A stretch of 64,000 nucleotides of DNA, from positions 42,118-106,117 of the forward strand of contig WTGU01000077.1 in assembly GCA_011523425.1 (NCBI GenBank), written 5' to 3'. This DNA is from Alphaproteobacteria bacterium (GTDB taxonomy: Bacteria > Pseudomonadota > Alphaproteobacteria > UBA828). Below the pieces are notes generated by a model. It worked only from the letters and a program-made list of their open reading frames with translations. It was not told the DNA's origin and searched no databases. A program made the translations under genes and the position numbers. Shown piece by piece: positions 19,370 to 37,468 of the stretch (within the stretch, counting starts at the first letter, position 1; the number at the start of each line of letters is the position of its first letter).

Positions 19370-20961
19370 GCGGAGCCATCGATCCCGTGACCCTCGAGGT
19401 GATCCGCCACGCGCTGACGGCGACGGCGGAGGAGATGTCGCTCGTGGTCATGCGCTCGGCGCGCTCGCCGCTGCTGCGCGAGGCCGGCGATCTCTCGTCC
19501 GCGCTGACCGATGCCGACGGCCACCTCATCGCCCAGGGCCGCGACATTCCCATGCACATGGGGGTGATGAGCTTCACCGTCCGTGAGTTCCTGAAGCGGG
19601 TGCCGCGCGAGCGGCTGGAGCCCGGCGACGTCTGGTTCCTCAACCTGCCGGAGGTCGGCGGCAACCACCTGCCGGACGTGAAGGCGATCCGGCCGATCTT
19701 CGTGGACGGGGTCATCGTGGCCTTCGCGGCGAGCCTCGCCCACTGGGCGGATATCGGCGGCGCCGTGCCCGGCAGCTACGTCGCCGGCGCCACCGACGCC
19801 TGGCAGGAGGGCCTGCGCATCCCGCCCTTCCGTCTCTTCACCGCCGCCGGGCCCGACCGCGAGAAGCTCGACATGATCTGCGCCAACGTGCGCGGCGCGG
19901 ACGAGCGCGAAGGCGACATCCTGGCGCAGGTCGCGGCCAGCCGGGCGGCCGAGGAGCGCGTGCACCAGATCTGCGCCGAGCACGGCACCGGAACGGTGAC
20001 CGCCGCCATCGCCGCCATTCACGACCGGGCCGAGGCGCAGATGCGCACAGCGCTCGCGGCGATCCCCGACGGCGACTACGCGGGCGAGGACTGGCTCGAC
20101 GACGATGCCGGCGGCGGCGGCCCCGTCGCCGTCCGCGTGCGTGCGACTATCGCGGGCGACAGCGCGCGCTTCGACTTCTCGGAGACCGACGACGCGGCAC
20201 GGGGGCCGGTGAACACCACGCCCTTCATCGCCGCGGCCTCGGTCTTCTACGTGGTGAAGGCGCTGTTCGGCCCCGACATCCAGCCGAGCGGCGGCTGCTA
20301 CCGGCCGCTGGAGATCGTGACCCGGCCCGGCTCGCTGCTCGATCCTGGCCCGGAAAGCCCCGTGGTGGGCGGCAATCACGAGACCTCGCAGCGGATCGCC
20401 GATGCCGTGTTCCGCGCGCTTGAGCCCACCGGGCCGGAGCGGCTCACGGCCGGCGGGCCGACCACGTCGGGCCTGGTGCTCTTCGGCGGCAGGCGGAGCG
20501 ACGGCGCCTGGACCACGCTCTACGAGGTCCACGGCGGCGGCGAGGGCGCGCGGCACGACCGCGACGGGGCGCCGGTGATCCGGGTCCACATGTCCAACGT
20601 GATGAACACGCCGGCCGAGGTGGTCGAGGCCGAGTATCCCATCCGCATCGAGTACCAGCGCCTGCGCCGCGACTCCGGCGGTGCCGGCCGCCATCGGGGC
20701 GGCGAGGGGCTGCATCGCGAATACAGGGTTCTGGGCGACGACATGTCGGTGACCTCGATGTTCGAGCGCCGCGTGGTGCCGCCCTACGGCCTGCAGGGCG
20801 GCGAGGAAGGCGCGCCCTTCCGCGTGACCGTCGTCCACGCGGATGGCCGCAGCTACGACATGCCGGGCAAGGCGAACCTCCGGCTCGGCGAGAACGACCT
20901 CGTCGTGGTCGAGAGCTGCGGCGGCGGCGGATACGGGCAGCCGGAAAGTGAAGGCCGATGA
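19366..20961 (+). CDS. hyuB: hydantoinase/oxoprolinase subunit B (HyuB)
   Basis: A 531-residue partner of HyuA. Family signatures are IDPVTLEVIRHALTATAEEM at the start, the GDLSSALTDADGHLIAQGRD motif, NLPEVGGNHLPDVKAI, and the late GGAGRHRGGEGLHREY. The GTG start overlaps the hyuA stop (GTGA), so the two are translationally coupled. HyuA and HyuB form one enzyme complex in known members. The following SDR gene overlaps its stop by four bases. Confidence 0.93.
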   Translation: MSGAIDPVTLEVIRHALTATAEEMSLVVMRSARSPLLREAGDLSSALTDADGHLIAQGRDIPMHMGVMSFTVREFLKRVPRERLEPGDVWFLNLPEVGGNHLPDVKAIRPIFVDGVIVAFAASLAHWADIGGAVPGSYVAGATDAWQEGLRIPPFRLFTAAGPDREKLDMICANVRGADEREGDILAQVAASRAAEERVHQICAEHGTGTVTAAIAAIHDRAEAQMRTALAAIPDGDYAGEDWLDDDAGGGGPVAVRVRATIAGDSARFDFSETDDAARGPVNTTPFIAAASVFYVVKALFGPDIQPSGGCYRPLEIVTRPGSLLDPGPESPVVGGNHETSQRIADAVFRALEPTGPERLTAGGPTTSGLVLFGGRRSDGAWTTLYEVHGGGEGARHDRDGAPVIRVHMSNVMNTPAEVVEAEYPIRIEYQRLRRDSGGAGRHRGGEGLHREYRVLGDDMSVTSMFERRVVPPYGLQGGEEGAPFRVTVVHADGRSYDMPGKANLRLGENDLVVVESCGGGGYGQPESEGR

Positions 20962-21773
20962 ACGGACGAACGAATCGGGGGAACGGTGCTGTGAAGCTGG
21001 ATGGCAGGAAGACGATCGTCACGGGCGCGGCGAAGGGCATGGGCGCGGCCATCACGACGACGCTCGCGCGCGAGGGCGCCGACGTCGTGCTGACCGCCCG
21101 CGACACCGAGCCGCTCGAACGGGTGGCGGACGATGTCCGGGCGCTGGGGCGCACGGCCCACGTGATCGGCTGCGACGTGACCGAGGATGCCGAGGTCAAG
21201 GCCATGGTCGATGCGGCGCTCGGCGCCTTCGACGGGCGCATCGACATCCTGGTCAACATCGCCGGCGTCACCGGGCCGATCGAGACCCCGGTGCAGGACA
21301 TCGACGTGGCCGACTTCGACTACGTCATCACCGCCAACGAGCGCGGCACCTTCCTGCCCATCAAGTATGTGGTGCCGACCATGATCGCCCAGCGAAGCGG
21401 CAAGATCGTCAATATCGGCGGCACCTCGGGCCTGCGCGGCTACGCCATGCGGACCGCCTACAGCGCGTCCAAGTGGGCGGTACGCGGGATCACGCGCACC
21501 GTCGCGCTCGAGGTCGGCAAGTACAACGTCAACGTCAACGCCGTCTGCCCCGGCATCGTCGAGACCCCGCGCATGCAGAAGCTCTGTGAGGAGAAGGCCC
21601 GCGTGCGCGGCTGGACCATCGAGGAGGTCTACGACGAGTACGTGCAGGAGATGTGCCTGAAGCGCGTCACCACCTGCCAGGACGTGGCCAACGCCGTGCT
21701 CTTCATGGCGAGCGAGGACAGCCGCCAGATCACCGGCCAGGCCATCACGGTCGACGGCGGCTGGGACGTGTGA
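20958..21773 (+). CDS. short-chain dehydrogenase/reductase
   Basis: A 271-residue classical SDR: cofactor motif TGAAKGMG (22-29), NIAG in place of NNAG (100-103), and catalytic Ser157 (GGTSG), Tyr168 and Lys172 (YSASK). It ends ITGQAITVDGGWDV, as is usual. Arg48 after the second strand (LTARD) suggests a preference for NADP(H), though this is weak. It would oxidise an alcohol or reduce a carbonyl in the pathway encoded here. The ATG overlaps the hyuB stop; an in-frame GTG at 20991 is an alternative start. Confidence 0.9.
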   Translation: MNGRTNRGNGAVKLDGRKTIVTGAAKGMGAAITTTLAREGADVVLTARDTEPLERVADDVRALGRTAHVIGCDVTEDAEVKAMVDAALGAFDGRIDILVNIAGVTGPIETPVQDIDVADFDYVITANERGTFLPIKYVVPTMIAQRSGKIVNIGGTSGLRGYAMRTAYSASKWAVRGITRTVALEVGKYNVNVNAVCPGIVETPRMQKLCEEKARVRGWTIEEVYDEYVQEMCLKRVTTCQDVANAVLFMASEDSRQITGQAITVDGGWDV

Positions 21774-21807: not shown

Positions 21808-22674
21808 ATGTACGCGCCGTTCGAACTGGACATTCCGAACGATCTGGCGGGCGCCTTGGCGGCGCTCGCGAACGGGGACGGCGAGGCGGTTCTCCCCCTC
21901 GCCGGCGGCACCAACCTCATCGTCGACATCCGCGCCGGGCGCGAGCGGCCCGACCGGATGGTGGGTCTCGACGGGGTCGACGAGCTCAAGGGCATGGAGT
22001 TCGGGCCGGAGCGCATCGCCATCGGCGGCCGCACCACGGTGAGCGACCTGCTGCGCTCGCCCGAGATCGCCCGGGAGGCGCCCTCGCTGGTCGAAGCCGC
22101 GCGCCTCTTCGGCGGCCTGATGGTGCGCAACACAGGCACCGTCGCCGGCAACATCGCCAGCGGCTCGCCGGCGGCCGACCTGGTGCCGCCGCTGCTCACG
22201 CTCGACGCCGAACTGACGCTTCAGAGCGCCGCGTCCACGCGCACGCTGGCGCTGGACGACTACTACCTCGGCTACAAGCAGGACGCGCGGCGGCCGGACG
22301 AGCTGATCACCCGGATCTCGTGGCCGCGCCTGCCGAGGGATTCCGTCAACACCTTCTACAAGCTCGCCCGGCGCAAGGGCGATGCGATTACGGTGACCGG
22401 CGTGGCGGTGACGCTCGCGGCGGCGGGTGGCACCTGCACCACGGCGCGGATCGCGCTCGCGTCCGTCGCGCCGGTGGTGCGCCGCGTCAAGGAGGCCGAG
22501 GCGCTGCTGGAGGGCCGGGCGCTGACGCCGGCGCTGATCGACGAGGCGGCGGAAGCGGCGGCGGAGGCGTGCACGCCCATCGACGATATCCGGGCCTCCG
22601 CCGATTACCGCCGACACACGGTCCGGGCGCTGACCCGCCGCCTCGTTGCCGGGGCGTGGGACCGGCTGGCCTAG
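21808..22674 (+). CDS. molybdenum hydroxylase set A, FAD subunit (CoxM/XdhB-like)
   Basis: A 288-residue FAD-binding subunit of the xanthine dehydrogenase/CO dehydrogenase family, passing electrons from the iron-sulphur subunit to an acceptor. FAD motifs are LPLAGGTNLIVDIRAG (near 30-45) and VRNTGTVAGNIASGSPAADL (about 108-127). The C-terminal domain ends DYRRHTVRALTRRL. A GGGAGG lies before the ATG. It is the first of three genes (FAD, 2Fe-2S, Mo) that follow the SDR gene after 34 bases. Confidence 0.93.
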   Translation: MYAPFELDIPNDLAGALAALANGDGEAVLPLAGGTNLIVDIRAGRERPDRMVGLDGVDELKGMEFGPERIAIGGRTTVSDLLRSPEIAREAPSLVEAARLFGGLMVRNTGTVAGNIASGSPAADLVPPLLTLDAELTLQSAASTRTLALDDYYLGYKQDARRPDELITRISWPRLPRDSVNTFYKLARRKGDAITVTGVAVTLAAAGGTCTTARIALASVAPVVRRVKEAEALLEGRALTPALIDEAAEAAAEACTPIDDIRASADYRRHTVRALTRRLVAGAWDRLA

Positions 22675-22687: not shown

Positions 22688-23176
22688 ATGTCCGAGACAA
22701 GAAACATCACGCTCCGCATCAACGGCCGCGGGGAGGAGGGGCGTTTCCCCGCCCATCGCACCCTGCTGGAGGCGCTGCGCCAGCTCGGCCACATGGAGGT
22801 GAAGTGCGGCTGCGAGAAGGGCGACTGCGGCGCCTGCGCCGTGCTGCTGGACGGCATGGCCGTGGACAGTTGCCTGACGCTGGCCTGGATGGCGGCCGGC
22901 AAGGAGGTCACCACCGTCTCCGGCCTCGGCGATCTCGATGCGCCCCATCCCTTGCAGGAGGCGTTCGCCGACAGCGGCGCCGCGCAGTGCGGCTACTGCA
23001 TTCCGGGGATCATCATCGCGGCCCAGGCGATCATCGCCGAGAACCCGGAGCCGAGCGAGGACGACATTCGCCTCGGCCTCAGCGGCAATCTCTGCCGCTG
23101 CACCGGCTACACCAAGATCTTCGAGGCCATCGCCGACGCGGCCAGAGAGATGCGCGCCGAGGGAGGTGAGCAATGA
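22688..23176 (+). CDS. molybdenum hydroxylase set A, 2Fe-2S subunit (CoxS-like)
   Basis: A 162-residue electron-transfer subunit with two [2Fe-2S] clusters. The plant-type ferredoxin cluster uses Cys42, 47, 50 and 62 (CEKGDCGACAV). The helical-domain cluster uses Cys101, 104, 136 and 138 (CGYCIPG and LCRCTGY). ATG 22688 is chosen because GGGGAG lies 8 bases before it; an in-frame GTG lies at 22679. The stop overlaps the start of the Mo subunit gene (ATGA). Confidence 0.95.
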   Translation: MSETRNITLRINGRGEEGRFPAHRTLLEALRQLGHMEVKCGCEKGDCGACAVLLDGMAVDSCLTLAWMAAGKEVTTVSGLGDLDAPHPLQEAFADSGAAQCGYCIPGIIIAAQAIIAENPEPSEDDIRLGLSGNLCRCTGYTKIFEAIADAAREMRAEGGEQ

Positions 23177-25515
23177 CCTACACCGACATCGATCCGGGGG
23201 CGCTGGCCAACGTCCAGTTCCGGCAGGTCGGCAAGCCGCTGACCCGCACCGACGCGCCGGGCAAGGTCACCGGGCGGACGCCCTACGCCGGCGATTACGT
23301 GATGCCGAACATGCTGCACATGCGGGTGGCGCGCGCCGACGTCGCGAGCGCCCGCCTCGTCCGCCTCGATGTCTCCCGCGCCAGGGCGCTCAAGGGTGTC
23401 GCCTGCGTGCTGACCGCTGCCGATATGCCCGACCGCACGTCGGCCACCGACATCCCGGGCCAGACCGGCCAGAAGAGGCTGGATACCGACCAGCCGGTCC
23501 TGGTGAAGGATCGGGTCCGCTACTTCGGCGAGCCGCTGGCGCTGATCGCGGCCGAGACGCGCGACATCGCCGACCACGCGGCGGCGCTCGTCGAGTTCGA
23601 GCTGGAGCCGATCCCCGGCGTCTACGACCCGCTGGAGGCGCTGAAGCCCGGCGCGCCGCAGGTCTATGGCGAAGACAACATCGTGGCCACGCGCAGGATC
23701 AGGAAGGGCGATGTCGAGGCGGGATTCGCCCGGGCCGATCTCATCGTCGAGAACACCTACAAGACGCCGTTCCAGGAGCACGCCTTCCTCGAGCCGGAGG
23801 TGGGCCTCGCCTGGGTGGACGAGAACGACGTGGTCAACATCCGCGTCTCGACCCAGGTGATCGAGCACTTCCGGCCGATCGCCGACGCCATCGGCGTGCC
23901 GCACAACAAGGTCCGCGTGCGGGGCGCGCTGGTGGGCGGCGGCTTCGGCGGCAAGGAGGACATGACCGTCGAGGTCTATCTCGCGCTGCTCGCCAAGCAC
24001 ACGGGCAGGCCGGTGCGGCTGGAATACTCGCGCGAGGATTCCTTCGTGGGCCACGGCAAGCGCCACCCCTTCATCCTCACCTACCGCACCGGCGTGACGA
24101 AGGAGGGCAAGATCACGGCCCTCGACGTGACGATGATCGCGGACGCCGGCGCCTACGTCTTCCTCAGCCCCTACGTCATCCTCTATGCGCTGGTCGCCGC
24201 CCCCGGCCCCTACCGGGTCGACAACATCAATGTCTTCGCGCAAGCCGTCGCCACCAACAACATGTACACGAGCGCCTTCCGCGGCTTCGGCGCGCTGCAG
24301 GCCTGCGCGGCCTACGAGCAGCAGATGGACGAGATCGCGGACGCGCTCGGCATCGACCGCCTGGAACTCCGCCGGCGCAACTTCCTCAAGACCGGCGAGC
24401 CCATGTCCACCGGCTTCGTGCCGCCGAGCGCCATCTGGACCGAGCAGTGCGCGGAGAAGGCCTGGGCCGGGCTGGGCGAACCCACGCCGGCGCAAGGCCC
24501 GATACGGACCGGGCGCGGCCTCGCCTGCTACCAGCAGAGCTACGGCCGCCTGACCTTCCTGCACGACACGTCGGAGGCCTGGGTCGGGGTCGAGATGGAC
24601 GGCACCGTCGTGGTGCGCTCCGGCGTCACCGACATCGGCGCCGGCCAGATTTCGGCGATCGGCCAGATCGCGGTGGAGGTGCTGGGCGTCACGCTGGACA
24701 ACGTCGTCATCTACAACAGCGATTCCGCCGTGACCCCGCTCGCCGGCACCACGACCGCGACGCGCGCGCTCTACATGACCGGCAACGCCGCCAAGCAGGC
24801 GGCCGAAGGGCTTCGCGCCCGGCTGGTCGAACGCGCGGCGCAGGAGTTCGGCGTGGCGCCCGACGAGATCGACATGGGCTTCAACGAGGTCTTCGTCATC
24901 GACAGACCGGAGAAGACCATGCCGCTGGTCGACCTGGTGCGGATCTGCGCGGCCGAGGGCATTCACCGCTCGGAACTGGCCATCTTCCGCGCCCCGTTCG
25001 GCGATTTCCTCGATCCCGAGACCGGCCAGGGGCAGGCCCATCCCGACTATGCCTACGGCGCTCACGCGGTGGAGGTCTCCGTCGACGTGGAGACCGGCGA
25101 GGTCGAGGTGCTGAAGAGCGTGGCCGCGCACGATGTCGGCCAGTGCATCAACCCGGCGGCGGTCGAGGGCCAGATCCAGGGAGGCGCGCAGAACGGGCAG
25201 GGCTACGCGCTCAGCGAGGAGATGCTCTACGAGGAGGGCCGCCTGGTCACGCCGTCCTTCAGCGAATACCTGATGCCGACGGCCATGGACATGCCGAAGG
25301 TCGAGTGCATCATCCTCGAATCCCGCAGCGGCGTGGGGCCCTTTGGCGCCAAGGGCATCGGCGAGCCGGCCATGACCGCCGTGGCGCCCGCCATCGCCAA
25401 CGCCGTCGCCGACGCCATCGGCGTGCGCGTCTTCGAGATGCCGATCACGCCGGAGCGCGTGGTCCGGGCGTTGCACGGGAAGGGCGCGGCGGAACAGGGC
25501 CGGGATCCGGCGTGA
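23173..25515 (+). CDS. molybdenum hydroxylase set A, molybdopterin (catalytic) subunit
   Basis: A 780-residue Mo-cofactor subunit of the xanthine dehydrogenase family. The key features are GGGFGGKED (near residue 256), the active-site loop AFRGFGALQ (about 368) and the catalytic Glu in GAKGIGEPAMT (about 728). The loop lacks the AYRCSF Cys of form I CO dehydrogenase, so it is not a CO dehydrogenase. It more likely hydroxylates an N-heterocycle or oxidises an aldehyde. The substrate is unknown; the neighbouring histamine and hydantoinase genes make an imidazole compound an attractive guess. No maturation factor (XdhC/CoxF type) is encoded nearby. Confidence 0.93.
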   Translation: MTYTDIDPGALANVQFRQVGKPLTRTDAPGKVTGRTPYAGDYVMPNMLHMRVARADVASARLVRLDVSRARALKGVACVLTAADMPDRTSATDIPGQTGQKRLDTDQPVLVKDRVRYFGEPLALIAAETRDIADHAAALVEFELEPIPGVYDPLEALKPGAPQVYGEDNIVATRRIRKGDVEAGFARADLIVENTYKTPFQEHAFLEPEVGLAWVDENDVVNIRVSTQVIEHFRPIADAIGVPHNKVRVRGALVGGGFGGKEDMTVEVYLALLAKHTGRPVRLEYSREDSFVGHGKRHPFILTYRTGVTKEGKITALDVTMIADAGAYVFLSPYVILYALVAAPGPYRVDNINVFAQAVATNNMYTSAFRGFGALQACAAYEQQMDEIADALGIDRLELRRRNFLKTGEPMSTGFVPPSAIWTEQCAEKAWAGLGEPTPAQGPIRTGRGLACYQQSYGRLTFLHDTSEAWVGVEMDGTVVVRSGVTDIGAGQISAIGQIAVEVLGVTLDNVVIYNSDSAVTPLAGTTTATRALYMTGNAAKQAAEGLRARLVERAAQEFGVAPDEIDMGFNEVFVIDRPEKTMPLVDLVRICAAEGIHRSELAIFRAPFGDFLDPETGQGQAHPDYAYGAHAVEVSVDVETGEVEVLKSVAAHDVGQCINPAAVEGQIQGGAQNGQGYALSEEMLYEEGRLVTPSFSEYLMPTAMDMPKVECIILESRSGVGPFGAKGIGEPAMTAVAPAIANAVADAIGVRVFEMPITPERVVRALHGKGAAEQGRDPA

Positions 25516-25540: not shown

Positions 25541-26302
25541 ATGTCCGAGACCAACGACAAGCCGCTGAGCCGGTACATCCGGGTGCTGGAGACGGTCGCC
25601 CACGCCAGGACGGGCGTGACGCTCACGGACATCGCCAGGGAGCTGGAGCTGCATCCGGGGACGGCGCATCGCCTGATCCGCGGTCTCGTCGCTCTCGACC
25701 TGCTGCACAGTCCGGCCGGGACCAAGAGCTACGTGGCCGGTGCCAGGCTTCAGTCTCTGCTCCACGCGACCATGGACCGCGCGGGCTATGCGGCGTTCGC
25801 GAAGTCCGTCCTCGACGGGCTCGTGGCGGAGTTCGGCGAGACCGCCCATCTGGCGCGGCTGAGCGGCGACTTCGCCGAGTCCGTGCTGATGGAGCAGCCG
25901 TCGGGCTCCGACCGCGCCTTCGTGCAGCCGGGGCGCCAGCTTCCGTTGCACGCGGCGGCGTCGGGCAAGGCGATCCTCGCCTTTCAGGACGAGGACTTCG
26001 TGGCGCGCTATCTCACGCGGCCGCGCGAGCAGTTCACGGAAAGGACCAAGGTCGGCGAGACCGCCATCCGCAACGAGATCGACCGCATTCGCGCCGACGG
26101 GATGGCGGTCTGCGACAACGAGCTCGACAGCGGCGTGCTCAGCTACGGGCACCCGGTGCGGATCGGCGGCGGTCAGGTCCTCTATTCGGTCGGCATCACC
26201 GGGCTCGCCGACCGCTTTCGCCCCATCGATCGCTCCAGGATCAAGCTGAGGCTCTCGGAGGCGGCGGCCGATCTCGGCAGGAGGCTCGGCTTCACAGGCT
26301 AA
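25541..26302 (+). CDS. IclR-family transcriptional regulator
   Basis: A 253-residue regulator with an N-terminal winged helix (LTDIARELELHPGTAHRLIR at about 27-46) and a C-terminal IclR ligand-binding domain (GETAHLARLSGD, LPLHAAASGKAILAF, RADGMAVCDNELDSGVLSYG). IclR proteins usually control nearby catabolic operons and bind small aromatic or carboxylic effectors. The gene is on the same strand as its neighbours, 25 bases after the molybdenum hydroxylase and directly before the histidine decarboxylase. Its stop codon lies inside the ribosome-binding site of that gene, suggesting coupled expression. Confidence 0.92.
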   Translation: MSETNDKPLSRYIRVLETVAHARTGVTLTDIARELELHPGTAHRLIRGLVALDLLHSPAGTKSYVAGARLQSLLHATMDRAGYAAFAKSVLDGLVAEFGETAHLARLSGDFAESVLMEQPSGSDRAFVQPGRQLPLHAAASGKAILAFQDEDFVARYLTRPREQFTERTKVGETAIRNEIDRIRADGMAVCDNELDSGVLSYGHPVRIGGGQVLYSVGITGLADRFRPIDRSRIKLRLSEAAADLGRRLGFTG

Positions 26303-26314
26303 GGGAATGTGTCG

Positions 26315-27256
26315 ATGGTCGACTCACGCTTGGCGGACATCGTTCGAAACTGCCGGAACACGACGGCCAGCAGCTGCGGCGGCTATCTGGAGCCGACGGC
26401 CACGGGCCAACCGGGCGCCTACGTCTCGACGATCCTGCTTTCCACCGGCAGCGTCAATCTCGAGCAGTTTCCGGGCTACCCGTTCGAGGAGGACCTGGAC
26501 CAGGGCATGGCCGAGATCGTGTCCTACGACCGCGCCGAGTGTAACGATTCCTATATCGGCCAGGTCAACATGCTGCAGGCGTCGTCGTTCAGCGGCGTCA
26601 ACGGCGCCATCTGGGGCTACGACCTGGCGATCGAACCCCGCATCGGCAAGACCTATCCCGTCGGCCGCATCGAGAACATTCCCATCTACTCGCTCATTCC
26701 CCTGCGCGACGCCACCCGGCAGCTCTTCGGCGTTGCGGACTGCCGGCACTTCCCGCCGCAGGAGGGGGCGATGGTCGTCTGCGCCGAGAAGTACCGGACG
26801 AGCACGGTCTCCGACGGCAATCTGTGGATCTGGTGCGCGCTCGGCTTCGCGATTGCGGAAGATCGCGAGAACCACGCCTGCCTGTTCATGGAGGACACGG
26901 GCTCGCTGGCGCTGGGGCCGGACGGGGGACAGGCGGTGCGGGAGAGGCTCGACGACAGGCTCAACAGGATCGCCTATGCGGCGTATCTCTGCGGCGTGAA
27001 CCAGGGCGCAACCTACGAGAAGATCTATATCGGCTGGAAGGCGTCCCACATTCCCGAGAACCACGTCGGCTGCGCGCTCGCCTGCGCGCCGTACGTGACG
27101 CTGCCGACGGGCGCGTTCAGGAACATCACGCCCGAGACGGGCATCCTGGAGCTTTCGACGGACGAGTGGCTGTCCCGGGTCGGCCACTCCAGGGTGGAGG
27201 AGCCTGACTACGAGCTCGAGACCCTGACCGGGCCGAACATCCCGGCCGTGCAGTAG
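26315..27256 (+). CDS. hdcA: pyruvoyl-dependent histidine decarboxylase (HdcA family)
   Basis: A 313-residue proenzyme that closely follows the Lactobacillus-type pyruvoyl histidine decarboxylase over its whole length. The region IVSYDRAECNDSYIGQVNML is followed by the self-cleavage site QASSFSG. The chain should be cut between Ser90 and Ser91, turning Ser91 into the pyruvoyl group of the alpha chain. Counterparts of known active-site residues are present: Tyr71, Asp72 and Glu75 (SYDRAE), Lys159 (VVCAEK) and Glu193 (FMEDTG). The expected product is histamine. ATG 26315 has AAGGGA 8 bases upstream; an in-frame GTG lies at 26309. No histidine/histamine antiporter gene is adjacent, unlike the Lactobacillus operon. 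A related amino acid substrate is possible. Confidence 0.88.
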   Translation: MVDSRLADIVRNCRNTTASSCGGYLEPTATGQPGAYVSTILLSTGSVNLEQFPGYPFEEDLDQGMAEIVSYDRAECNDSYIGQVNMLQASSFSGVNGAIWGYDLAIEPRIGKTYPVGRIENIPIYSLIPLRDATRQLFGVADCRHFPPQEGAMVVCAEKYRTSTVSDGNLWIWCALGFAIAEDRENHACLFMEDTGSLALGPDGGQAVRERLDDRLNRIAYAAYLCGVNQGATYEKIYIGWKASHIPENHVGCALACAPYVTLPTGAFRNITPETGILELSTDEWLSRVGHSRVEEPDYELETLTGPNIPAVQ

Positions 27257-27302
27257 GCAACCGCTGCCACCCCCGACGGGCCGCTGACCGGAGCCTCGTG
27301 CG

Positions 27303-28388
27303 TTGACCGAGACGAGCATAGCGATCGACGTGCGCAATGCGGTGAAGCGCTTCGGCGCGGTCACGGCGCTCGCCGGCGCGTCGCTGACCATCCGGGACAA
27401 CGAGTTCTTCACGCTGCTCGGCCCGTCGGGCTGCGGCAAGACCACCCTGCTCCGCCTCATCGCCGGCTTCGAGGAGATTACCGAGGGCGAGATCCTCCTC
27501 TACGGCGAGGACCTCGGGGCGCTGCCGCCCAACCGGCGCCCGATCAACACCGTCTTCCAGCACTACGCGCTTTTCCCGCACATGACGGTGGCCGAGAACG
27601 TTGCCTTCGGCATGCGCAGGCTCGGCTGGACCAAGGCCGACATCGAGGCCCGGACGCTGCGCATCCTCGATCTGGTGAAGCTCGGCGACCTCGCGGCGCG
27701 TAGGCCCGCCCAGCTTTCCGGCGGGCAGCAGCAGCGGGTGGCACTCGCCCGCGCCATGGCGCCCCGGCCGAAGGTGCTCCTGCTCGACGAGCCGCTGTCC
27801 GCGCTCGACCTGAAGCTGCGTCAGGCCATGCGGATCGAGCTGAAGCAGATCCAGAAGGATACCGGCATCACCTTCGTCTTCGTCACCCACGACCAGGAAG
27901 AGGCGCTGACCATGTCGGACCGCATCGCCGTGATGTCGGCGGGCGAGATCCGGCAGGTGGGCACGCCGCGCGAGATCTACGAGGCGCCCCTCGACCGCTT
28001 CGTGGCCGACTTCATCGGCGAGACCAACGTGCTGGACGCGACCGTGCGGCGGGGGTCGGACGATGCGCTCACCTGCCACCTTACCAACGGGGCCGCGTTC
28101 CCGTGCCACGCGAGCGTGCCGCCCGAAGACGGGGCCTTCGCGCACGTGCTGATTCGGCCGGAGCGCCTCTCCCTCGTGCCCGAGGCGGCGTGCGACACCG
28201 GCCTCACGGGCGTGGTCGACCAGGCCGTCTACCTCGGCACCGACATCCAGTACGGCGTCCGGCTGGACGACGGGCCGGACGTCCTGGTCCGCGCGCAGAA
28301 CGTCGGCGCCGACGCGGTGACCCATCGCACCGGCGACCGCGTGGGCCTCGCCATCGCCCCCGGCGCGGCACGGCTCCTGGTGGACTGA
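27303..28388 (+). CDS. Pot-type ABC importer ATPase (PotA-like)
   Basis: A 361-residue spermidine/putrescine-type ATPase. Walker A is GPSGCGKTT (40-48), the signature is LSGGQQQR (about 138) and Walker B/D-loop is LLLDEPLSALD. The H-loop is FVTHDQEEAL, followed by a TOBE domain. All catalytic motifs are intact. The start appears to be TTG, with GGAGC upstream, because the only nearby GTG runs into a stop. It lies 46 bases after hdcA, and its stop overlaps the next start by one base. With the following genes it should import a cationic amine or amino acid. Confidence 0.93.
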   Translation: MTETSIAIDVRNAVKRFGAVTALAGASLTIRDNEFFTLLGPSGCGKTTLLRLIAGFEEITEGEILLYGEDLGALPPNRRPINTVFQHYALFPHMTVAENVAFGMRRLGWTKADIEARTLRILDLVKLGDLAARRPAQLSGGQQQRVALARAMAPRPKVLLLDEPLSALDLKLRQAMRIELKQIQKDTGITFVFVTHDQEEALTMSDRIAVMSAGEIRQVGTPREIYEAPLDRFVADFIGETNVLDATVRRGSDDALTCHLTNGAAFPCHASVPPEDGAFAHVLIRPERLSLVPEAACDTGLTGVVDQAVYLGTDIQYGVRLDDGPDVLVRAQNVGADAVTHRTGDRVGLAIAPGAARLLVD

Positions 28389-29314
28389 TGGCCGGCGAGC
28401 TCGCCAGCACGCGCGCGGTCTCCCGCACCTTCGCGCCGGTGCGCACCCACTTGCTGATCCCGACCTGGGTGATCATCGGCTTCTTCCTCGTGGCGCCGGT
28501 GCTGATGATGCTCGTCTACTCCTTTCTGACGAAGGAGTTCCGGGGCGGCGTGATCTGGGACTTCTCGCTCGCGGCCTACGACCAGTTCATCTTCGATCGT
28601 GGCCTTTTCGGCGACGATCCGCCGCAGATCGAGTGGACCTACATCGTCATCTTCGCGCGCTCGATCGTGCAGGCCGCCGTCGCCACCGTGCTCTGCCTCA
28701 TCATCGGCTTCCCGACCGCCTACTTCATCGCGACCCGCTCGCCCGCGACGCGCTCGATGTGGCTCTTCCTGGTGACGGTTCCCTACTGGGTGAACCTGCT
28801 CATCCGCACGGTCTCGATGAAGTTCCTCATCCGCGACAACGGGCCGCTCAACGAGGCGCTGCTCGGTCTCGGGGTCATCAACGAGCCGATCGCGCTCATC
28901 AACACCGATTTCGCCGTGCAGCTCGGCCTCTTCTACTCGTACCTGCCCTTCATGGTGCTGCCGATCTACGCCTCGGTGGAGCGCTACGACTTCGCCCTTT
29001 CCGAGGCGGCGGCCGACCTCTACGCCAACCGCTGGACGATCCTGCGCAGGGTGATCCTGCCGATCGTGCGGCCAGGCATCGTGGCGGGCTGCATCCTGGT
29101 CTTCGTGCCGAGCCTCGGCGCCTTCCTCGCGCCCGACCTTCTCGGCGGCGCGAAGAACTTCCTGATCGGCTCGCTGATCGAGGAGCAGTTCAAGGGCAAC
29201 GCCGGCAACTGGCCCTTCGGCGCTGCCGCCTCGATGATCCTGCTCTCCCTCGTGCTGATCGCGCTCTTCATCTACGCGCGCCGGCAGGCGCTGCGCAGCG
29301 CGAAGGCCGCCTGA
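28388..29314 (+). CDS. Pot-type ABC importer permease (PotB-like)
   Basis: A 308-residue inner-membrane permease. The first membrane segment is at about 22-44 ([20 protein letters not shown]), and about five more follow. The long loop carrying [20 protein letters not shown] is typical of PotB. The EAA loop is [20 protein letters not shown], and its end [11 protein letters not shown] is characteristic. It forms the channel with the PotC-like protein. The start overlaps the potA-like stop (TGATG). Confidence 0.93.
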
Positions 29315-29315
29315 G

Positions 29316-30137
29316 ATGCGGCGCAGGCTCGACATCCGCCGCTATCCCGGCTTCCTGCCGGTGACGATCCTCTGCCTCGTGGTGCTCTACGCGCCGCTGC
29401 TGGTGGTGATGGTCTACAGCTTCAACGACTCGCTCTCGATCACCCGCTGGGGCGGGTTCAGCTTCCGCTGGTACATGGACATCTTCACCGGGCCGGAATC
29501 GGCCAAGTTCAAGGATGCGGCGTGGAACTCGCTCACCATCGCGCTCTGCGCGGCGACGGCCAGCACGACCATCGCCACCGCCGCGGCGGTCGCGATGGTG
29601 CGGGGCGGGGCCTTCCGCGGCAAGGCGCTGAACCTCGCGCTCATCAGCATGCCGATCATGGTGCCGGAGATCGTCACCGCGGTGGCGACGCTGATCTTCT
29701 TCAGCGCCATCGGTTTCACGCTCGGCTATCTCTCCATTCTCGTCGCCCACATCGTCTTCTGCATTCCGTTCGCGTACCTGCCGATCGCGGCACGCCTGCA
29801 GGGGATCGACGGCAGCTACGAGGAGGCCGCGCAGGATCTTTACGCGAGCCGCTTCCAGGCGTTCCTGCGCGTTCTCATGCCGTTGATGGCGCCCGGCATT
29901 CTCGCGGGCTTTCTGCTGGCATTCATCATCTCGCTGGACGATTTCATCATCACCAACTTCATCAAGGGCGCCGGTATCGAGACCCTGCCCACGGCGATAT
30001 TCGGGGCCGTGAAGCAGGGCATCAAACCCAACATCATGGCGCTCAGCACCATCATGCTCTCCGTCTCGATCCTGATCGTCACGCTGTCCTATTTCATCAG
30101 TCGGTACGGTCGCCAGGGAACGAAGGCGGGGGCGTGA
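29316..30137 (+). CDS. Pot-type ABC importer permease (PotC-like)
   Basis: A 273-residue permease with about six membrane segments. Near the start, [20 protein letters not shown] is followed by VYSFNDS, a PotC hallmark. The EAA loop is [20 protein letters not shown], followed by [20 protein letters not shown], which is strongly conserved in PotC/YdcV. It starts one base after the PotB-like stop. Confidence 0.94.
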
Positions 30138-30175
30138 GTCTTTTGCGGCAATCAAACCCAACCAAGGAGGCCACA

Positions 30176-31213
30176 ATGCGCTACTTGCTCAAAGCCGGAA
30201 TGGCTGCGTTGGCCCTGACCTTTGTCGCAGGCGCGGCACAGGCTCAGGAGAAGCTCTCGATCTACCACTGGTTCGAGTACATCCCGCAAGAGCTTCTCGA
30301 CAAGTTCTCGGCGGAGACGGGAATCGAGGTGACCATGGACACCTTCGATTCCAACGAGGCCATGCTGGCATCTCTCAAGGCCGGCAAGCTCGGCTCCTAC
30401 GACGTGGCGGTGCCGGGCGACTACATGGTCGAGATCATGATCGGCGAAGGCATGCTCGACACCGTCGCGGACGGCGAGCTCGCCAACTTCGCGAATATCG
30501 AGCAGCAGTGGCTGGACGTGCCCTTCGATATGGGCCGCAAGCACTCGATCCCCTACCAGTGGGGCTCGACCAGCTTCTCGGTGAACCGGGACGTCTATCA
30601 GGGCGACATCAACGACACCGCCATCGTCTACGACCCGCCGGACGAGCTGAAGGGCAGGATCAACGTGCTCGACTCCCAGGGCGAGGTCATGCTTCTGGCT
30701 GCCCTCCATCTCGGGATTCCGCAGTGCTCGACCGACCGTGAGCAGCTCAAGCAGCTCGATGCGCTGCTGCAGGCGGCCAAGCCGCACTGGGCCTCCTTCA
30801 ACTCCGACGGCGCCAAGGACGTGCTGGTCTCCGGCGACGCCGCCGTGGGGATGATCTGGAACGGCTTCGGCGCCAAGGCGCGCGCCGAGGGCGCCAACAT
30901 CGAGTACGCCTATCCGCGTCAGGGCTACGTGGTCTGGATGGACAACGTGGTGCTGCTGAAGGACGCCCCCAACCGGGCCAGCGCGATCAAGTTCATGGAC
31001 TTCCTGCTGGAGCCGGAGAACATCGCCGCGGTCACCAACTACGCGCGCTATGCCGCCGGCGTGACGGGCGTGACTCCGCACCTCGATCCGGAGCTCGCCA
31101 GCCAGCCCGAATCGGTGCCGCCTGCCGATGCGCCTGCCGGCACCTTCGTCGCGGTGTGCGATCAGGCGACCCAGGAGGTCTACGACACCATGTGGACCCG
31201 CCTGAAGAAATAG
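30176..31213 (+). CDS. Pot-type periplasmic binding protein (PotD-like)
   Basis: A 345-residue binding protein with a signal peptide cleaved near AQA (residues 21-23). The mature start EKLSIYHWFEYIPQELLDKF is typical of the PotD/PotF group (YNW.DYI in polyamine receptors). It continues with YDVAVPGDYMVEIMI and the aromatic IPYQWGSTSF. The ligand-recognition loop DSQGEVMLLAALHLG keeps an acidic residue where polyamine receptors read amines. An ideal AAGGAGG precedes the ATG by 5 bases, suggesting high expression. Ligands consistent with the context are histamine, histidine or another imidazole amine; polyamines cannot be excluded. Confidence 0.92.
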   Translation: MRYLLKAGMAALALTFVAGAAQAQEKLSIYHWFEYIPQELLDKFSAETGIEVTMDTFDSNEAMLASLKAGKLGSYDVAVPGDYMVEIMIGEGMLDTVADGELANFANIEQQWLDVPFDMGRKHSIPYQWGSTSFSVNRDVYQGDINDTAIVYDPPDELKGRINVLDSQGEVMLLAALHLGIPQCSTDREQLKQLDALLQAAKPHWASFNSDGAKDVLVSGDAAVGMIWNGFGAKARAEGANIEYAYPRQGYVVWMDNVVLLKDAPNRASAIKFMDFLLEPENIAAVTNYARYAAGVTGVTPHLDPELASQPESVPPADAPAGTFVAVCDQATQEVYDTMWTRLKK

Positions 31214-31297
31214 ACATCCGTTACCCGTTGCCGGGCGGCGCGCTCCAGCGGGGCGCGTCGCGCCGGCCACCCCCGTCGCGGCCGATCGGGTGATCCC

Positions 31298-33370
31298 ATG
31301 AACGTTGATTCGCGTTTCGACATTCTGCTTCAGCCCATCGAGATCGGGCCCGTCACCGCCCGCAACCGCTTCTACCAGGTGCCTCATTGCACCGGCATGG
31401 GCTACCGCGACCCGACGGCGCTCGCCCACATGCGTGGCGTCAAGGCCGAAGGGGGCTGGGCCGTGGTCTGCACCGAGCAGGTCGAGTTCCACTGGACCTC
31501 GGAGATCACGCCCTTCATCGAGCTCCGGCTCTGGGACGACCGCGACATTCCGATGCTCGCCAGGATGGCGGATCACGTCCACGCGCACGGCGCGCTCGCC
31601 GGGCTGGAGCTCTGCTACAACGGTGCGCACGCGCCCAACTTCTATTCGCGCGAAGTGCCGCTGGCGCCGACGGGCCTGCCGGTCGCGAGCTTCAGTTACG
31701 AGCCCGTCCAGGCGCGCAGCATGGACAAGCAGGACATCCGCAACGTCCGCCGCTGGCACAGGGCGGCGGCGCTTCGCGCCAGGCAGGCGGGCTACGACCT
31801 CATCTACGTCTACGCCGGTCACGGGCTGAGCTTCCTCCATCACTTCCTCTCCAGGGAGTTCAATCACCGCACGGACGAGTACGGCGGCTCGCTGGAGAAC
31901 CGCGTCCGGCTCCTCAAGGAGCTCCTGATCGACACCAGGGAGGCGGTGGGCGACACCTGCGCCGTGCCCTGTCGCCTCTCGATGGACGAGCTACGCGGGG
32001 GCGTCGGGCTGGAGAAGGCCGAGACCGAGGACATGATCGGACTCGTGGCCGAGATTCCGGACCTCTGGGACGTCTGCCTCGCCTCCTGGGAGAACGACAG
32101 CATGCCGTCGCGCTTCGGCGAGGAGGGCGGGCAGGAGCCCTACATCGACGGCGTGAAGAAGCTCACCACCAAGCCCGTGGTGGGCGTCGGCCGCTACACC
32201 TCGCCCGACCGCATGGCGTCCGTCATCCGCAAGGGCATCGTCGACCTGATCGGCTGCGCGCGGCCCTCCATCGCCGATCCCTTCCTGCCGCGAAAGGTGG
32301 AGGAGGGGCGCGTCGAGGACATCCGCGAGTGCATCGGCTGCAACATCTGCGTCTCCGGCGACTTCACCATGTCGCCCATCCGCTGCACCCAGAACCCGAC
32401 CATGGGGGAGGAGTGGCGCCGGGGCTGGCATCCGGAGCGCATCCGGCCGAAGGAGAGCGACAAGCCCGTCCTCGTGGTCGGCGCCGGCCCCGCCGGGCTC
32501 GAGGCGGCACAGGCGCTCGGCAAGCGGGGCTACGAGGTGACTCTGGCGGAGCAGGCCACGGAGCTCGGCGGCCGCGTGGCAAAGGAGTGCCGCCTGCCGG
32601 GGCTCGCCGCTTGGGGCCGGGTACGGGACTGGAGGGTCGAGCAGCTTCACAAGCTGCCGAACGTGAGCGTCTACCTGGATTCACGCCTCGACGCGGAGGC
32701 CGTCCTCGAATTCGGCTGCCCCCGCGTCGTCGTCGCCACCGGGTCGCGCTGGCGCGGCGACGGGGTGGGCCGCCACTGGACGACGCCGGTGCCGACCGGG
32801 GACGGCGCGCAGGTGCTGACGCCCGACGACATCATGGAGGATCGTCTGCCGCAGGGCCGGCGCGTCGTCGTCTGGGACGACGATCACTACTACATGGCCA
32901 GCGTGATGGCCGAGCTCCTGGCGGAGAAGGGCTTCGACACCACCTACATCACGCCTGCCTCGGAGGCCTCGACCTGGTCGCGCAACACCATGGAGCAGCA
33001 CTTCGCCCAGGCGCGCATGCTCGAGAAGGGAATTCGCATCCAGGCGTTCCGGACGCTGAGCCGCATTGCGCCGGGCGCAGTCGCACTCTCGTGCGTTCAC
33101 ACGGGCCGGGAGGAGGAGCTGGAGGCCGATGCCGTGCTCCTCGCCACCTCCCGCACGCCGTCGGACGAGCTCGCGACCGCGCTCGCGCGCCTGCGCGAGA
33201 GGTGGTCGGACGCGGGCCTCGAAGCGGTCGACGCCATCGGCGACGCGCTCGCGCCGGCGACCATCGCCCATGCCGTCTACGCCGGCCGGCGCTACGCGGA
33301 GGAGCTCGACGGCCCGGAGGTGATTGGCGACGCGGTGCCCTTCAAGCGCGAGCTGGCGGAATTGATATAG
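31298..33370 (+). CDS. histamine dehydrogenase-like flavoprotein (trimethylamine dehydrogenase family)
   Basis: A 690-residue iron-sulphur flavoenzyme homologous to trimethylamine dehydrogenase over its length. It has an N-terminal TIM barrel, a [4Fe-4S] site and C-terminal nucleotide-binding domains (VLVVGAGPAGLEAAQALGKR). Cys31 in NRFYQVPHCTG should hold 6-S-cysteinyl-FMN. Cys345, 348, 351 and 363 bind the cluster. Catalytic Tyr172, His175 and Asp267 are kept. The three aromatic positions that hold trimethylamine (Tyr60, Trp264, Trp355 in that enzyme) are Gln61, Trp264 and Asp355 here, the combination I recall for histamine dehydrogenase. The predicted reaction is histamine to imidazole-4-acetaldehyde plus ammonia. 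Electrons would probably go to a soluble carrier or electron-transfer flavoprotein not encoded in this window. Confidence 0.88.
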   Translation: MNVDSRFDILLQPIEIGPVTARNRFYQVPHCTGMGYRDPTALAHMRGVKAEGGWAVVCTEQVEFHWTSEITPFIELRLWDDRDIPMLARMADHVHAHGALAGLELCYNGAHAPNFYSREVPLAPTGLPVASFSYEPVQARSMDKQDIRNVRRWHRAAALRARQAGYDLIYVYAGHGLSFLHHFLSREFNHRTDEYGGSLENRVRLLKELLIDTREAVGDTCAVPCRLSMDELRGGVGLEKAETEDMIGLVAEIPDLWDVCLASWENDSMPSRFGEEGGQEPYIDGVKKLTTKPVVGVGRYTSPDRMASVIRKGIVDLIGCARPSIADPFLPRKVEEGRVEDIRECIGCNICVSGDFTMSPIRCTQNPTMGEEWRRGWHPERIRPKESDKPVLVVGAGPAGLEAAQALGKRGYEVTLAEQATELGGRVAKECRLPGLAAWGRVRDWRVEQLHKLPNVSVYLDSRLDAEAVLEFGCPRVVVATGSRWRGDGVGRHWTTPVPTGDGAQVLTPDDIMEDRLPQGRRVVVWDDDHYYMASVMAELLAEKGFDTTYITPASEASTWSRNTMEQHFAQARMLEKGIRIQAFRTLSRIAPGAVALSCVHTGREEELEADAVLLATSRTPSDELATALARLRERWSDAGLEAVDAIGDALAPATIAHAVYAGRRYAEELDGPEVIGDAVPFKRELAELI

Positions 33371-33389: not shown

Positions 33390-34910
33390 TCACCGCAGGA
33401 ACAGGCGGTACGCGGGATTGTCGCTCTCGTCGCGATAGTCGTAGCCCACCTCGTCGAGAAACGACTGGAAGTCCGCGCGGTCTTCCTGCGGCACCTGCAG
33501 GCCGATCAGCACCCGGCCGAAATCGGAGCCGTGGTTGCGATAGTGGAACATGCTGATGTTCCAGGGCTTGCTCCCCATGCGCGTGAGGAAGTGCATCAGC
33601 GCCCCCGGGCGCTCGGGAAAGTCGAAGCGATAGAGCACTTCGTCGAGCGCACCGGGCGCCCGCCCGCCGACCATGTAGCGCACGTGGAGCTTGGCCATCT
33701 CGTTGTCGGTCAGGTCGAGCACCGGGTAGCCGTCGCGCTCCAGCGCATCGATGAGCGAACGCCTGTCGGCGCCGGCACCGCTGATCTCCACGCCCACGAA
33801 GATGTGCGCGTCCGCGTCGTCGGCGAAGCGGTAGTTGAACTCGGTGATCGAGCGGTTGCCGATGAGCTCGCAGAACCGGAGCAGGCTGCCGGGGCGCTCC
33901 GGGATGGTCACCGCGAGCAGGATCTCCCGCTGCTCGCCGAGCTGAGCCCGCTGAGCGATGTGGCGGAGGCGGTCGAAGTTGACATTGGCCCCGCTCACCA
34001 CCGCCGCGAAGCGCCCGCCGTCCTCCGCGCCCTCCCGCTCGACGTAGCGCTTGAGGCCTGCGACCGCGAGCGCGCCCGCCGGCTCGGCGATCGAGCGCGT
34101 GTCCTCGAAGATGTCCTTGATGGCGGCGCAGATCTCGTCGGTGGAGACCAGCACCACCTCGTCGACGCAGTGCTGCGCGATGCGGAAGGGCTCGGCGCCG
34201 ATCTGCTTCACCGCCACGCCGTCGGCAAAGGTGCCGACCTGCTCCAGCACCACCCGCTCGCCTGCCGCGAGCGCCGCATGCAGCGTCGGCGTGTCGCGGG
34301 GCTCGACGCCGACGATCCGCGTCTCGGGCCACAATGCCTTGATGTAGGCCGCGATTCCGGCGATGAGTCCGCCGCCGCCGACGCTCACGAAGATCGCGTC
34401 GAAGGGCTCGCCTTGCTGGCGCACGATCTCCATCCCCACGGTGCCCTGCCCGGCGATGATCTGCTCGTCGTCATAGGGCGGAATGAGGACCATCCCGCGC
34501 TCGGCGGCCAGCGCTTCCGCCCGCTCCTTCGCGCCGTCGTAGGAATCGCCCGCGAGCAGCACCTCGGCGCCGAGCCGCTCGACCGCGTCCACCTTGATGC
34601 GCGGCGCCGTCTCCGGCATGACGATGAGCGCACGGGCGCCGAGCGTGCGCGCCGCCAGCGCCACGCCCTGCGCGTGATTGCCGGCGGACGATGCGACGAC
34701 CCCCCGCACCCGCTCCTCGGTGCTGAGCGACGAGAGCTTGTTGTAGGCGCCGCGCAGCTTGAACGAGAAGACCGGCTGCAGGTCCTCGCGCTTGAGCCAT
34801 ATCCCGGTTCCGAGCCGGGAAGAGAGCTTCGGCGCGTGCTCGAGCGGGGTTTCGCGCGCCACGTCGTAGACGCGCGCCTTCAGGATCTTCGCGACATAGT
34901 CTCGGGACAT
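33390..34910 (-). CDS. ilvA: threonine ammonia-lyase, biosynthetic (IlvA)
   Basis: A 506-residue PLP enzyme that deaminates threonine to 2-oxobutanoate, the first step of isoleucine synthesis. The PLP lysine lies in FSFKLRGAYN near residue 55, and the Gly-rich phosphate loop is SVGGGGLIAG. Two C-terminal ACT-like domains (from about 330) indicate the feedback-controlled anabolic form rather than the short catabolic one. ATG 34910 gives the conserved start MSRDYVAKILKARVYDVARE; no strong ribosome-binding site is seen. It converges on the flavoprotein gene, 19 bases apart. Confidence 0.96.
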   Translation of the reverse strand: MSRDYVAKILKARVYDVARETPLEHAPKLSSRLGTGIWLKREDLQPVFSFKLRGAYNKLSSLSTEERVRGVVASSAGNHAQGVALAARTLGARALIVMPETAPRIKVDAVERLGAEVLLAGDSYDGAKERAEALAAERGMVLIPPYDDEQIIAGQGTVGMEIVRQQGEPFDAIFVSVGGGGLIAGIAAYIKALWPETRIVGVEPRDTPTLHAALAAGERVVLEQVGTFADGVAVKQIGAEPFRIAQHCVDEVVLVSTDEICAAIKDIFEDTRSIAEPAGALAVAGLKRYVEREGAEDGGRFAAVVSGANVNFDRLRHIAQRAQLGEQREILLAVTIPERPGSLLRFCELIGNRSITEFNYRFADDADAHIFVGVEISGAGADRRSLIDALERDGYPVLDLTDNEMAKLHVRYMVGGRAPGALDEVLYRFDFPERPGALMHFLTRMGSKPWNISMFHYRNHGSDFGRVLIGLQVPQEDRADFQSFLDEVGYDYRDESDNPAYRLFLR

Positions 34911-35113
34911 GGGGCGGGGCTCGTTCGTAGGGCGGCGCGCGGGCGCCGGCGCGTCCGCGTCGTGGAGCATGCACATGGGGGTGCGGCGCGGGCGAGTCAA
35001 CACGCCGGGGCGGCTGGGCAGTGGCGCGGCCTCGCTTGCCGGCTGCCTCTGCCTGGCGCTATAAGGAGCGCGCGCTCAGGCGGGGCTCCTCCCGCCCGGA
35101 CGCACCCTTCGGC

Positions 35114-36526: not shown

Positions 36527-36592
36527 ACTGGCCTGCACAGGAACTCGGGCGGCCCGCCATCCGGCGGCGGGGCGGAACAGGGGAGAGACCGG

Positions 36593-37456: not shown

Positions 37457-37468
37457 AGGGAGGTGGAG

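Follow-up and report, generated by a model that had tools for sequence, protein, structure and literature searches.

A conserved alphaproteobacterial gene run predicted to use histidine by way of histamine

Results

Thirteen genes on one strand

The window, the whole stretch of 64,000 nucleotides that was analyzed, comes from an uncultured alphaproteobacterium and holds thirteen tightly packed genes on the plus strand between positions 17354 and 33370:

17354..19369, plus strand, HyuA, subunit A of an ATP-dependent hydantoinase/oxoprolinase, predicted to open a ring (PF01968, 270.9 bits; PF05378, 175.2; nearest solved structures, N-methylhydantoinase 7hk5 and 5-oxoprolinase 6yra)
19366..20961, plus strand, HyuB, hydantoinase subunit B (CapB, caprolactamase subunit beta, 259.4 bits, below the cut-off of 1000; conserved beside HyuA)
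20958..21773, plus strand, SDR oxidoreductase (PF13561, 198.3 bits; 91-92% identical in relatives)
21808..22674, plus strand, FAD subunit of a molybdenum hydroxylase (PF00941, PF03450; conserved)
22688..23176, plus strand, 2Fe-2S subunit of the molybdenum hydroxylase (PF01799, PF00111; conserved)
23173..25515, plus strand, molybdopterin subunit of the molybdenum hydroxylase, XdhMo (PF02738, PF20256, PF01315)
25541..26302, plus strand, IclR-family regulator (PF01614, IclR_C, 93.2 bits; PF09339)
26315..27256, plus strand, pyruvoyl-type histidine decarboxylase, HDC (PF02329; PDB match 1hq6/1pya; active-site residues; fold match to 1pya)
27303..28388, plus strand, PotA, ATPase of a polyamine-type ABC importer (TIGR01187, 389.6 bits, over the cut-off of 355.6)
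28385..29314, plus strand, PotB permease (best NCBIfam NF007044, 240.0 bits, below the cut-off of 348)
29316..30137, plus strand, PotC permease (best NCBIfam NF007047, 222.3 bits, below the cut-off of 326)
30155..31213, plus strand, PotD, putative solute-binding protein (best NCBIfam NF007048, 211.1 bits, below the cut-off of 582; PDB match to E. coli PotD)
31298..33370, plus strand, histamine dehydrogenase, HADH (PDB matches, cofactor and catalytic residues, tree and pocket survey)

The initial annotation had described a shorter unit, from 25541 to 33370, of closely spaced genes on one strand. That much is correct: the genes for IclR, the HDC homologue, PotABCD and the HADH-family enzyme are all present as open frames on the plus strand, with intergenic gaps from IclR to HADH of 12, 46, -4, 1, 17 and 84 bp. 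Its left boundary was drawn too narrowly. HyuA, at 17354, is the first gene of the run that is conserved in relatives, and HyuA-HyuB-SDR-XdhFAD-XdhFeS-XdhMo forms part of the same conserved run as IclR-HDC-Pot-HADH; only 25 bp lie between the end of the molybdenum hydroxylase large subunit and the start of IclR. On the other side, 221 bp separate HyuA from the preceding gene, which is not conserved there in relatives. We did not retain the amidase at 15729 and the genes upstream as members of the unit, since none of them was found ahead of HyuA in those relatives that we looked at.

The decarboxylase keeps ten active-site residues of histidine decarboxylase

The assignment of the gene at 26315 as a pyruvoyl histidine decarboxylase is backed by sequence and by linkage, and we regard the enzyme as a probable one of that kind. 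We place its start at ATG 26315; the open reading frame list starts it at GTG 26309. The product scores 147.7 bits against PF02329 (cut-off, 25) and 147.5 bits against the equivalog TIGR00541, under the latter's cut-off of 346.65. In an alignment, all ten active-site residues checked are those of the L. vaginalis enzyme (Ile59, Tyr62, Asp63, Glu66, Ser81, Ser82, Phe83, Phe195, Glu197 and Asp198 in Lactobacillus numbering). We take these positions to be catalytic and substrate residues that include the Ser-Ser cleavage site. Conservation counts across HDC loci would be biased, as rows were chosen by motif, with 57 of 80 loci passing and 23 dropped; we therefore rely on the pair of window and L. 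vaginalis sequences alone. Self-cleavage is predicted between Ser90 and Ser91 of the 313-residue product. A structure model (mean pLDDT, 83.7) finds its best PDB fold match in 1pya_B (E = 1.9e-13) and its next in the arginine decarboxylase 1n2m (E = 8.6e-07); it is poor before the cleavage site, where pLDDT is 57-66 around residues 61-90. Compared with the counterpart at locus L011, dN is 0.08 and dS 0.46, values that indicate purifying selection.

This enzyme had been described as mainly Gram-positive, a view that has to be given up. Homologues are common outside the Gram-positives: the 80 loci kept span several phyla and include Alphaproteobacteria, Bacteroidetes, Nitrospirota, Acidobacteria, cyanobacteria and others, though their neighbors are not those of the window HDC.

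The dehydrogenase matches characterized histamine dehydrogenases at six pocket residues

Was the last gene of the run correctly named a histamine dehydrogenase? PDB matches, tree and pocket all argue that it probably was. The protein scores 219.1 bits against Oxidored_FMN, and among PDB chains it comes nearest to the two histamine dehydrogenases, 6de6 (E = 9.6e-269) and 3k30 (E = 6.5e-267). By alignment it has the 6-S-cysteinyl FMN cysteine (Cys31), the triad Tyr172-His175-Asp267 and a 4Fe-4S motif from Cys345. A lost catalytic residue at Asn266, in the column of Rhizobium Asp265, was considered and rejected: the neighboring Asp267 aligns with Asp270 of Nocardioides simplex, and the triad is kept. 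In the tree, HADH falls into one clade of 11 rows with both characterized enzymes (support, 100/99), a clade that also includes two copies from the same genus whose pocket differs. Against the counterpart at L011, dN is 0.08 and dS 0.36, again purifying selection.

Six pocket residues (Gln61, Ile70, Phe73, Glu75, Trp264 and Asp355) are identical to those of both characterized histamine dehydrogenases. We rejected a trimethylamine-dehydrogenase reading because the pocket is Gln-Ile-Phe-Glu-Trp-Asp and not the Tyr...Trp type of paralogues such as L187. Among the 76 family matches listed (E up to 1e-150, at most 12 candidates scored per genome), three of which are unreadable at at least one of the six positions, all four copies linked to HDC have the six-residue pocket, as does 1 of the 69 unlinked members that could be read; three other family matches listed from the window's own genome lack it. 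The four HDC-linked dehydrogenases form one clade, so their shared pocket counts as one event and not four. Six of the eight histamine contacts proposed for N. simplex are kept, with His111 and Leu177 differing. According to the accessible part of a study of the Rhizobium enzyme, saturation mutagenesis gave no active substitution at the position equivalent to Leu177, and the enzyme was also screened on agmatine (PMC10180351), so that its specificity would not be absolute.

A predicted route from histidine through histamine

Coupling of decarboxylation to oxidation, as had been suggested, is supported by sequence and linkage: the pocket survey and the same-genus linkage both point to a decarboxylase and a dehydrogenase that would act in series. 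The suggestion that such a route would avoid the Hut pathway is supported too. In the window's genome the urocanase profile has no matches, and neither HutI (best, 43.7 bits against a cut-off of 298) nor HutH (best, 71.7 bits against 539) has a match over cut-off; HDC and HADH are linked there.

We think it likely that the products of the thirteen-gene run make histidine usable to the cell, aerobically, with histamine as the intermediate. The Pot importer would take up histidine, histamine or a related amine, and HDC would convert histidine to histamine inside the cell. HADH would then oxidize the histamine, handing the electrons to a flavoprotein and yielding imidazole acetaldehyde and ammonia. 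Imidazole acetate would come from a further dehydrogenase, whether encoded in the run or elsewhere; the molybdenum hydroxylase would add oxygen to the imidazole ring, which HyuAB would open at the expense of ATP, all under presumed control by IclR. The proposal builds on the observed genes, their conserved linkage, their active-site residues and the undetected Hut enzymes. Every substrate, the order of the steps and co-transcription of the run are what we infer from them; the importer substrate and all steps after imidazole acetaldehyde are its weakest parts. Against the proposal weigh the HDC score under the TIGR00541 cut-off, the two HADH contacts that differ, the relatives in which HDC-Pot lacks a neighboring HADH, and those in which HDC adjoins Hut-type genes. 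An operon joining HDC to HADH had been thought undescribed, and we likewise found no report of one in the open-access literature.

Linkage in relatives and the two halves of the run

All relatives are draft genomes. The gene set is beyond chance, given two gene orders in same-genus genomes, HDC-Pot-HADH and Pot-HADH-HDC (one relative has HDC behind HADH), and purifying selection on HDC and HADH. The hdcA-pot-dehydrogenase arrangement, proposed as something to look for in other genomes, was recovered in part: of the six same-genus genomes that could be read, four have HADH next to HDC, while in the other two, G002 and G006, HDC-Pot has no adjoining HADH and a HADH homologue with a different pocket lies elsewhere. 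In G002 and G003, HDC stands beside a Hut-type urocanase and HutI.

Perhaps the run is two neighboring systems joined by history only: Hyu-SDR-Xdh, acting on a compound that resembles a purine or a hydantoin, and IclR-HDC-Pot-HADH. IclR does sit between the halves, and a pathway joining them was not found in the open-access literature. The molybdopterin subunit keeps xanthine-dehydrogenase-like Glu262 and Arg370, and among five structures aligned it has both of the motifs GGGFGGKE and FRGFG in common only with xanthine dehydrogenase 1jro. Against this separation, the same 7 of 95 genomes carry HDC and XdhMo orthologues, and in these 7 HDC-bearing genomes the halves occur together: 5 of them have both directly on a single contig, and a contig break interrupts the run in G001 and, in its right part, in G003. 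They stay joined in G005 despite a different neighborhood. We consider two separate systems rather unlikely, and the molybdenum hydroxylase is predicted to hydroxylate an imidazole ring.

The importer and its possible substrates

The Pot-type importer was correctly described as complete: genes for PotA, PotB, PotC and PotD are all present, PotA alone scoring over its NCBIfam cut-off. Its family, together with an HDC under its equivalog cut-off and with Leu177 and His111 as pocket residues of HADH, would also fit service to another amine (agmatine, putrescine or a methylated amine), with HDC incidental or acting on another amino acid. Of the ten residues that we take to bind ligand in E. coli PotD, eight are kept on the alignment, which also favors this reading; the two presumed ligand residues that have been replaced (Ser83 by Gly and Asp168 by Ser) speak against it, as do the ten HDC active-site residues identical to those of L. 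vaginalis and an HADH pocket of histamine type rather than that of L187. We judge this reading improbable.

Signaling and acid resistance

Histamine from HDC might instead act on a host or on neighbors, with HADH clearing the excess, in a device for signaling or tolerance rather than a food route. Sponge symbionts have been proposed to make histamine, with a PLP-type enzyme, in the part of that report available (PMC10570526), and G002 and G006 have HDC without adjoining HADH. However, the importer, molybdenum hydroxylase and hydantoinase travel with HDC, and one query permease detected no histidine/histamine antiporter-like gene at E = 1e-3 in the window or at 12 loci from the same genus, so an exporter of that kind is not seen. 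We find such a device quite improbable. It is very improbable indeed that, as in lactic acid bacteria, the decarboxylation serves acid resistance or proton motive force: the enzyme family is the same, and beyond the genus 19 of 74 HDC loci have an antiporter-like gene (two weak, one the query's own locus), but none was found near HDC in the window or those 12 loci, and an oxidizing enzyme would consume the product.

Discussion

Histamine is usually described as a bacterial end product, made for acid defense, in food spoilage or for signaling, or as food from outside. If our reading of the run as a route through histamine is true, histamine would be made and burnt in one cell, a further way to use histidine in which a signal or waste molecule becomes a food intermediate, and histidine use by a genome with no detectable Hut enzymes would be explained. 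The run also offers a matched HDC-HADH pair and a candidate molybdenum hydroxylase for imidazole compounds, and the six-residue pocket may serve as a signature to predict histamine dehydrogenases. A bolder claim, that pyruvoyl HDC, flavoprotein, molybdenum enzyme and ATP-driven hydantoinase form a complete second aerobic histidine pathway replacing Hut in one alphaproteobacterial lineage, is one we consider less likely than not.

The window HDC has family, fold, Ser-Ser site and the ten residues in common with HdcA of Lactobacillus 30a (1pya) and L. vaginalis. Unlike HdcA of lactobacilli, it is about 31% identical to the lactobacillar copies, falls below the TIGR00541 cut-off and has no adjoining antiporter, whereas the lactic-acid-bacterial hdc cluster carries one near hdcA. 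With the histamine dehydrogenases of N. simplex (3k30) and Rhizobium sp. (6de6), HADH has in common the clade, FMN cysteine, triad, 4Fe-4S motif and six of eight contacts; it differs in His111, Leu177 and linkage to HDC. The Hut pathway would likewise degrade histidine, but it begins with deamination to urocanate, and no Hut enzyme scored over cut-off in the window's genome.

Two other systems invite comparison. The nicotine pathway of Agrobacterium S33 employs Pno, an HADH-family member 46-48% identical to the histamine dehydrogenases; its substrate is 6-hydroxypseudooxynicotine, and the available portion of the source describes no HDC (PMC5500553). The hin pathway of Pseudomonas putida U, as far as the consulted sections of two papers go, runs from histamine through imidazole acetaldehyde and imidazole acetate to ring opening, as predicted for the window run (PMC8231116, PMC6467879). 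It starts from histamine and employs an aminotransferase-type HinC, an FAD-monooxygenase HinF and amidases, whereas the window run would use a flavoprotein dehydrogenase, a molybdenum hydroxylase and HyuAB, with HDC feeding histidine in.

Extent and conservation of the gene run

The initial annotation had placed an operon at 25541..33370. All of the genes that it named are present in the window: IclR (a regulator), HDC (a pyruvoyl histidine decarboxylase homologue), PotA, PotB, PotC, PotD (a Pot-type ABC importer) and HADH (a histamine-dehydrogenase-family enzyme) are consecutive, with intergenic gaps of -4 to 84 bp. The gene run is real and unusual, and its core had been read sensibly, but its extent had been drawn too small. 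Searching relatives, we found that the run conserved in same-genus genomes is HyuA-HyuB-SDR-XdhFAD-XdhFeS-XdhMo-IclR-HDC-PotABCD, with or without HADH; HyuA and HyuB are hydantoinase subunits, SDR an oxidoreductase and the Xdh subunits a Mo-hydroxylase. The window copy begins at 17354, 221 bp past an amidase gene; among the relatives examined, no such gene was found ahead of HyuA. Between HyuA and IclR, neighbouring genes are -4 to 34 bp apart. Features at and beyond the core are as follows.

26315: ATG, most likely start of HDC
33390-35003, minus strand: ilvA, convergent, 19 bp past the HADH end
35273: Acyl-CoA_dh_2-type gene (Pfam match)
36593, 37463, 37951: first Mo-hydroxylase-like gene set (Pfam basis for 37951)
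40484, 42885, 43377: second Mo-hydroxylase-like gene set

The last three entries, an Acyl-CoA_dh_2-type gene followed by two further Mo-hydroxylase-like sets, occupy 35273-44177.

HDC occurred in 7 of 95 relatives, every one inside a single genus of eight genomes; the eighth genome (G004), without a match, is 62% complete. Counts were 7 of 22 for the order and 2 of 385 for the class sample, one of the two being the window's own genome. The Mo-hydroxylase large subunit (E up to 1e-200) marked the identical set of 7 of 95 genomes.

Is HADH a constant partner of HDC? Six of the seven HDC genomes could be read past PotD or around HDC-HADH; the G001 contig ends ahead of the HADH position. G000 and G007 have the order HDC-Pot-HADH, as does G003 over two contigs, where contiguity is inferred because one contig ends in PotA and the other starts in PotB. 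In G005 the order is IclR-Pot-HADH-HDC: HDC follows HADH after about 26 bp, and the cluster adjoins lipA-type genes, not ilvA. G002 and G006 keep HDC-Pot, but by eye an opposite-strand thiamine-diphosphate-type enzyme and another ORF take the HADH position, and a 74-75% identical HADH homologue is located elsewhere beside other genes. Hence HADH lies inside the run in four of six readable genomes, and some relatives do not have it next to HDC. The G002 and G006 homologues (L136, 10265-12361, and L137) have a Glu/Val pocket and by eye follow a long proline dehydrogenase PutA-like ORF; they are also preceded by ABC transporter genes and a further HyuAB pair.

The decarboxylase

In profile searches HDC scored far above the PF02329 cut-off and did not attain that of TIGR00541. 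Its PDB match was Lactobacillus 30a HDC, and 10 of 10 checked active-site residues are identical in the L. vaginalis enzyme. Across two alignments of 17 and 38 protein-database homologues, the Ser-Ser-Phe site, Tyr-Asp and the subsequent Glu are invariant, and the three specified residues of the Phe-x-Glu-Asp motif show at least 90% conservation. The HDC model (mean pLDDT 83.7), weak ahead of the cleavage site, matched 1pya_B first and a pyruvoyl arginine decarboxylase second. One database protein, P0105, is annotated with both PF01862 (pyruvoyl arginine decarboxylase domain) and PF02329.

A genome scan kept 74 HDC loci outside the genus, 40 of them with at least 5 kb on both sides; none had an HADH relative near HDC at E 1e-5. 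An antiporter-like gene was found at 19 of the 74 (two of the 19 weak, one the query's own locus). Six mostly alphaproteobacterial loci (L015, L018, L021, L026, L036, L040) show by eye a distinct, undescribed HDC context: a very long opposite-strand ORF (1132-1350 aa) and, in several, an ORF of ~415-510 aa directly ahead of HDC. Roseibium/Labrenzia loci L059, L062 and L066 carry PotA- and PotB-like genes a few kb downstream on the opposite strand, L062 a PotC-like gene too.

The dehydrogenase

The top two PDB matches of HADH were histamine dehydrogenases, one from Rhizobium and one from N. simplex. Using residues taken from PMC10180351, we observed that HADH retains FMN Cys31, the triad Tyr172/His175/Asp267 and pocket residues Gln61, Ile70, Phe73, Glu75, Trp264 and Asp355. 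It differs at two pocket positions, with His111 for Asn and Leu177 for Phe/Tyr. The same paper reports no active substitution in Rhizobium mutagenesis at the position equivalent to Leu177, and this counts against simple transfer of function.

We then read the six retained positions in each of the 76 matches listed (22 of 95 genomes, E up to 1e-150, no more than 12 candidates scored in any genome), three of which were unreadable at one or more positions. Five had the Q-I-F-E-W-D pocket: all four copies linked to HDC, plus L138, which is closely related to the Rhizobium enzyme. Among matches listed, this is 4/4 linked versus 1/69 readable unlinked members; the linked copies form a single clade and so represent one evolutionary event. 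Three further matches listed from the window's own genome all lack this pocket. In a tree of 34 rows, the linked HADHs and both characterised histamine dehydrogenases share one clade (support 100/99), which also includes L138, L144 and the G002/G006 copies. Pocket and clade together tie HADH to histamine as a predicted function, in agreement with its initial assignment to the histamine type. The trimethylamine/histamine dehydrogenase family itself has at least 76 members in 22 of 95 genomes, up to at least eight per genome, with many different pockets.

Import and predicted downstream steps

PotD is nearest to E. coli PotD and, counted on their alignment, keeps 8 of ten ligand residues of that protein, with Ser83 replaced by Gly and Asp168 by Ser. 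The Mo-hydroxylase has GGGFGGKE and FRGFG, a pair common to xanthine dehydrogenase 1jro and missing in the other four structures aligned; the Glu and Arg of these motifs mark N-heterocycle substrates. The nearest structures to HyuA are N-methylhydantoinase and 5-oxoprolinase. No aldehyde dehydrogenase lies within the conserved run. After imidazole acetate, the hydroxylase would put oxygen on the imidazole ring and an ATP-driven opener would then split it, predicted roles that would make sense chemically.

Hut enzymes

Could histidine instead pass through urocanate? Fourteen well-known genomes served as controls, and each of the three Hut searches placed 4 of them above cut-off. In the window's own genome (99.25% complete) no Hut enzyme was detected above cut-off: urocanase (HutU) was without a match, the matches to HutI were weak (43.7 bits at best, versus a cut-off of 298) and HutH reached at most 71.7 bits versus 539. 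This accords with the route avoiding Hut that had been proposed. The genome does hold a HutH-like ORF, though without urocanase. HutH exceeded its cut-off in none of the eight genus genomes, and HutU was found, and HutI above cut-off, in two, G002 and G003. Because a below-cut-off HutH-like ORF in G003 shares a contig with HutU and HutI, it is possible that the genus has a divergent HutH.

Comparison with known systems

The initial annotation knew of no described operon joining HDC and HADH, and likewise none turned up in our searches of open-access papers. Sponge symbionts with a PLP-type HDC have been proposed as histamine makers, according to PMC10570526. Brevibacterium strains carrying homologues of hin, the Pseudomonas putida U histamine pathway, are described in PMC6467879 as without histidine decarboxylase homologues. 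In the hin pathway itself, as PMC8231116 and PMC6467879 present it, the entry compound is histamine.
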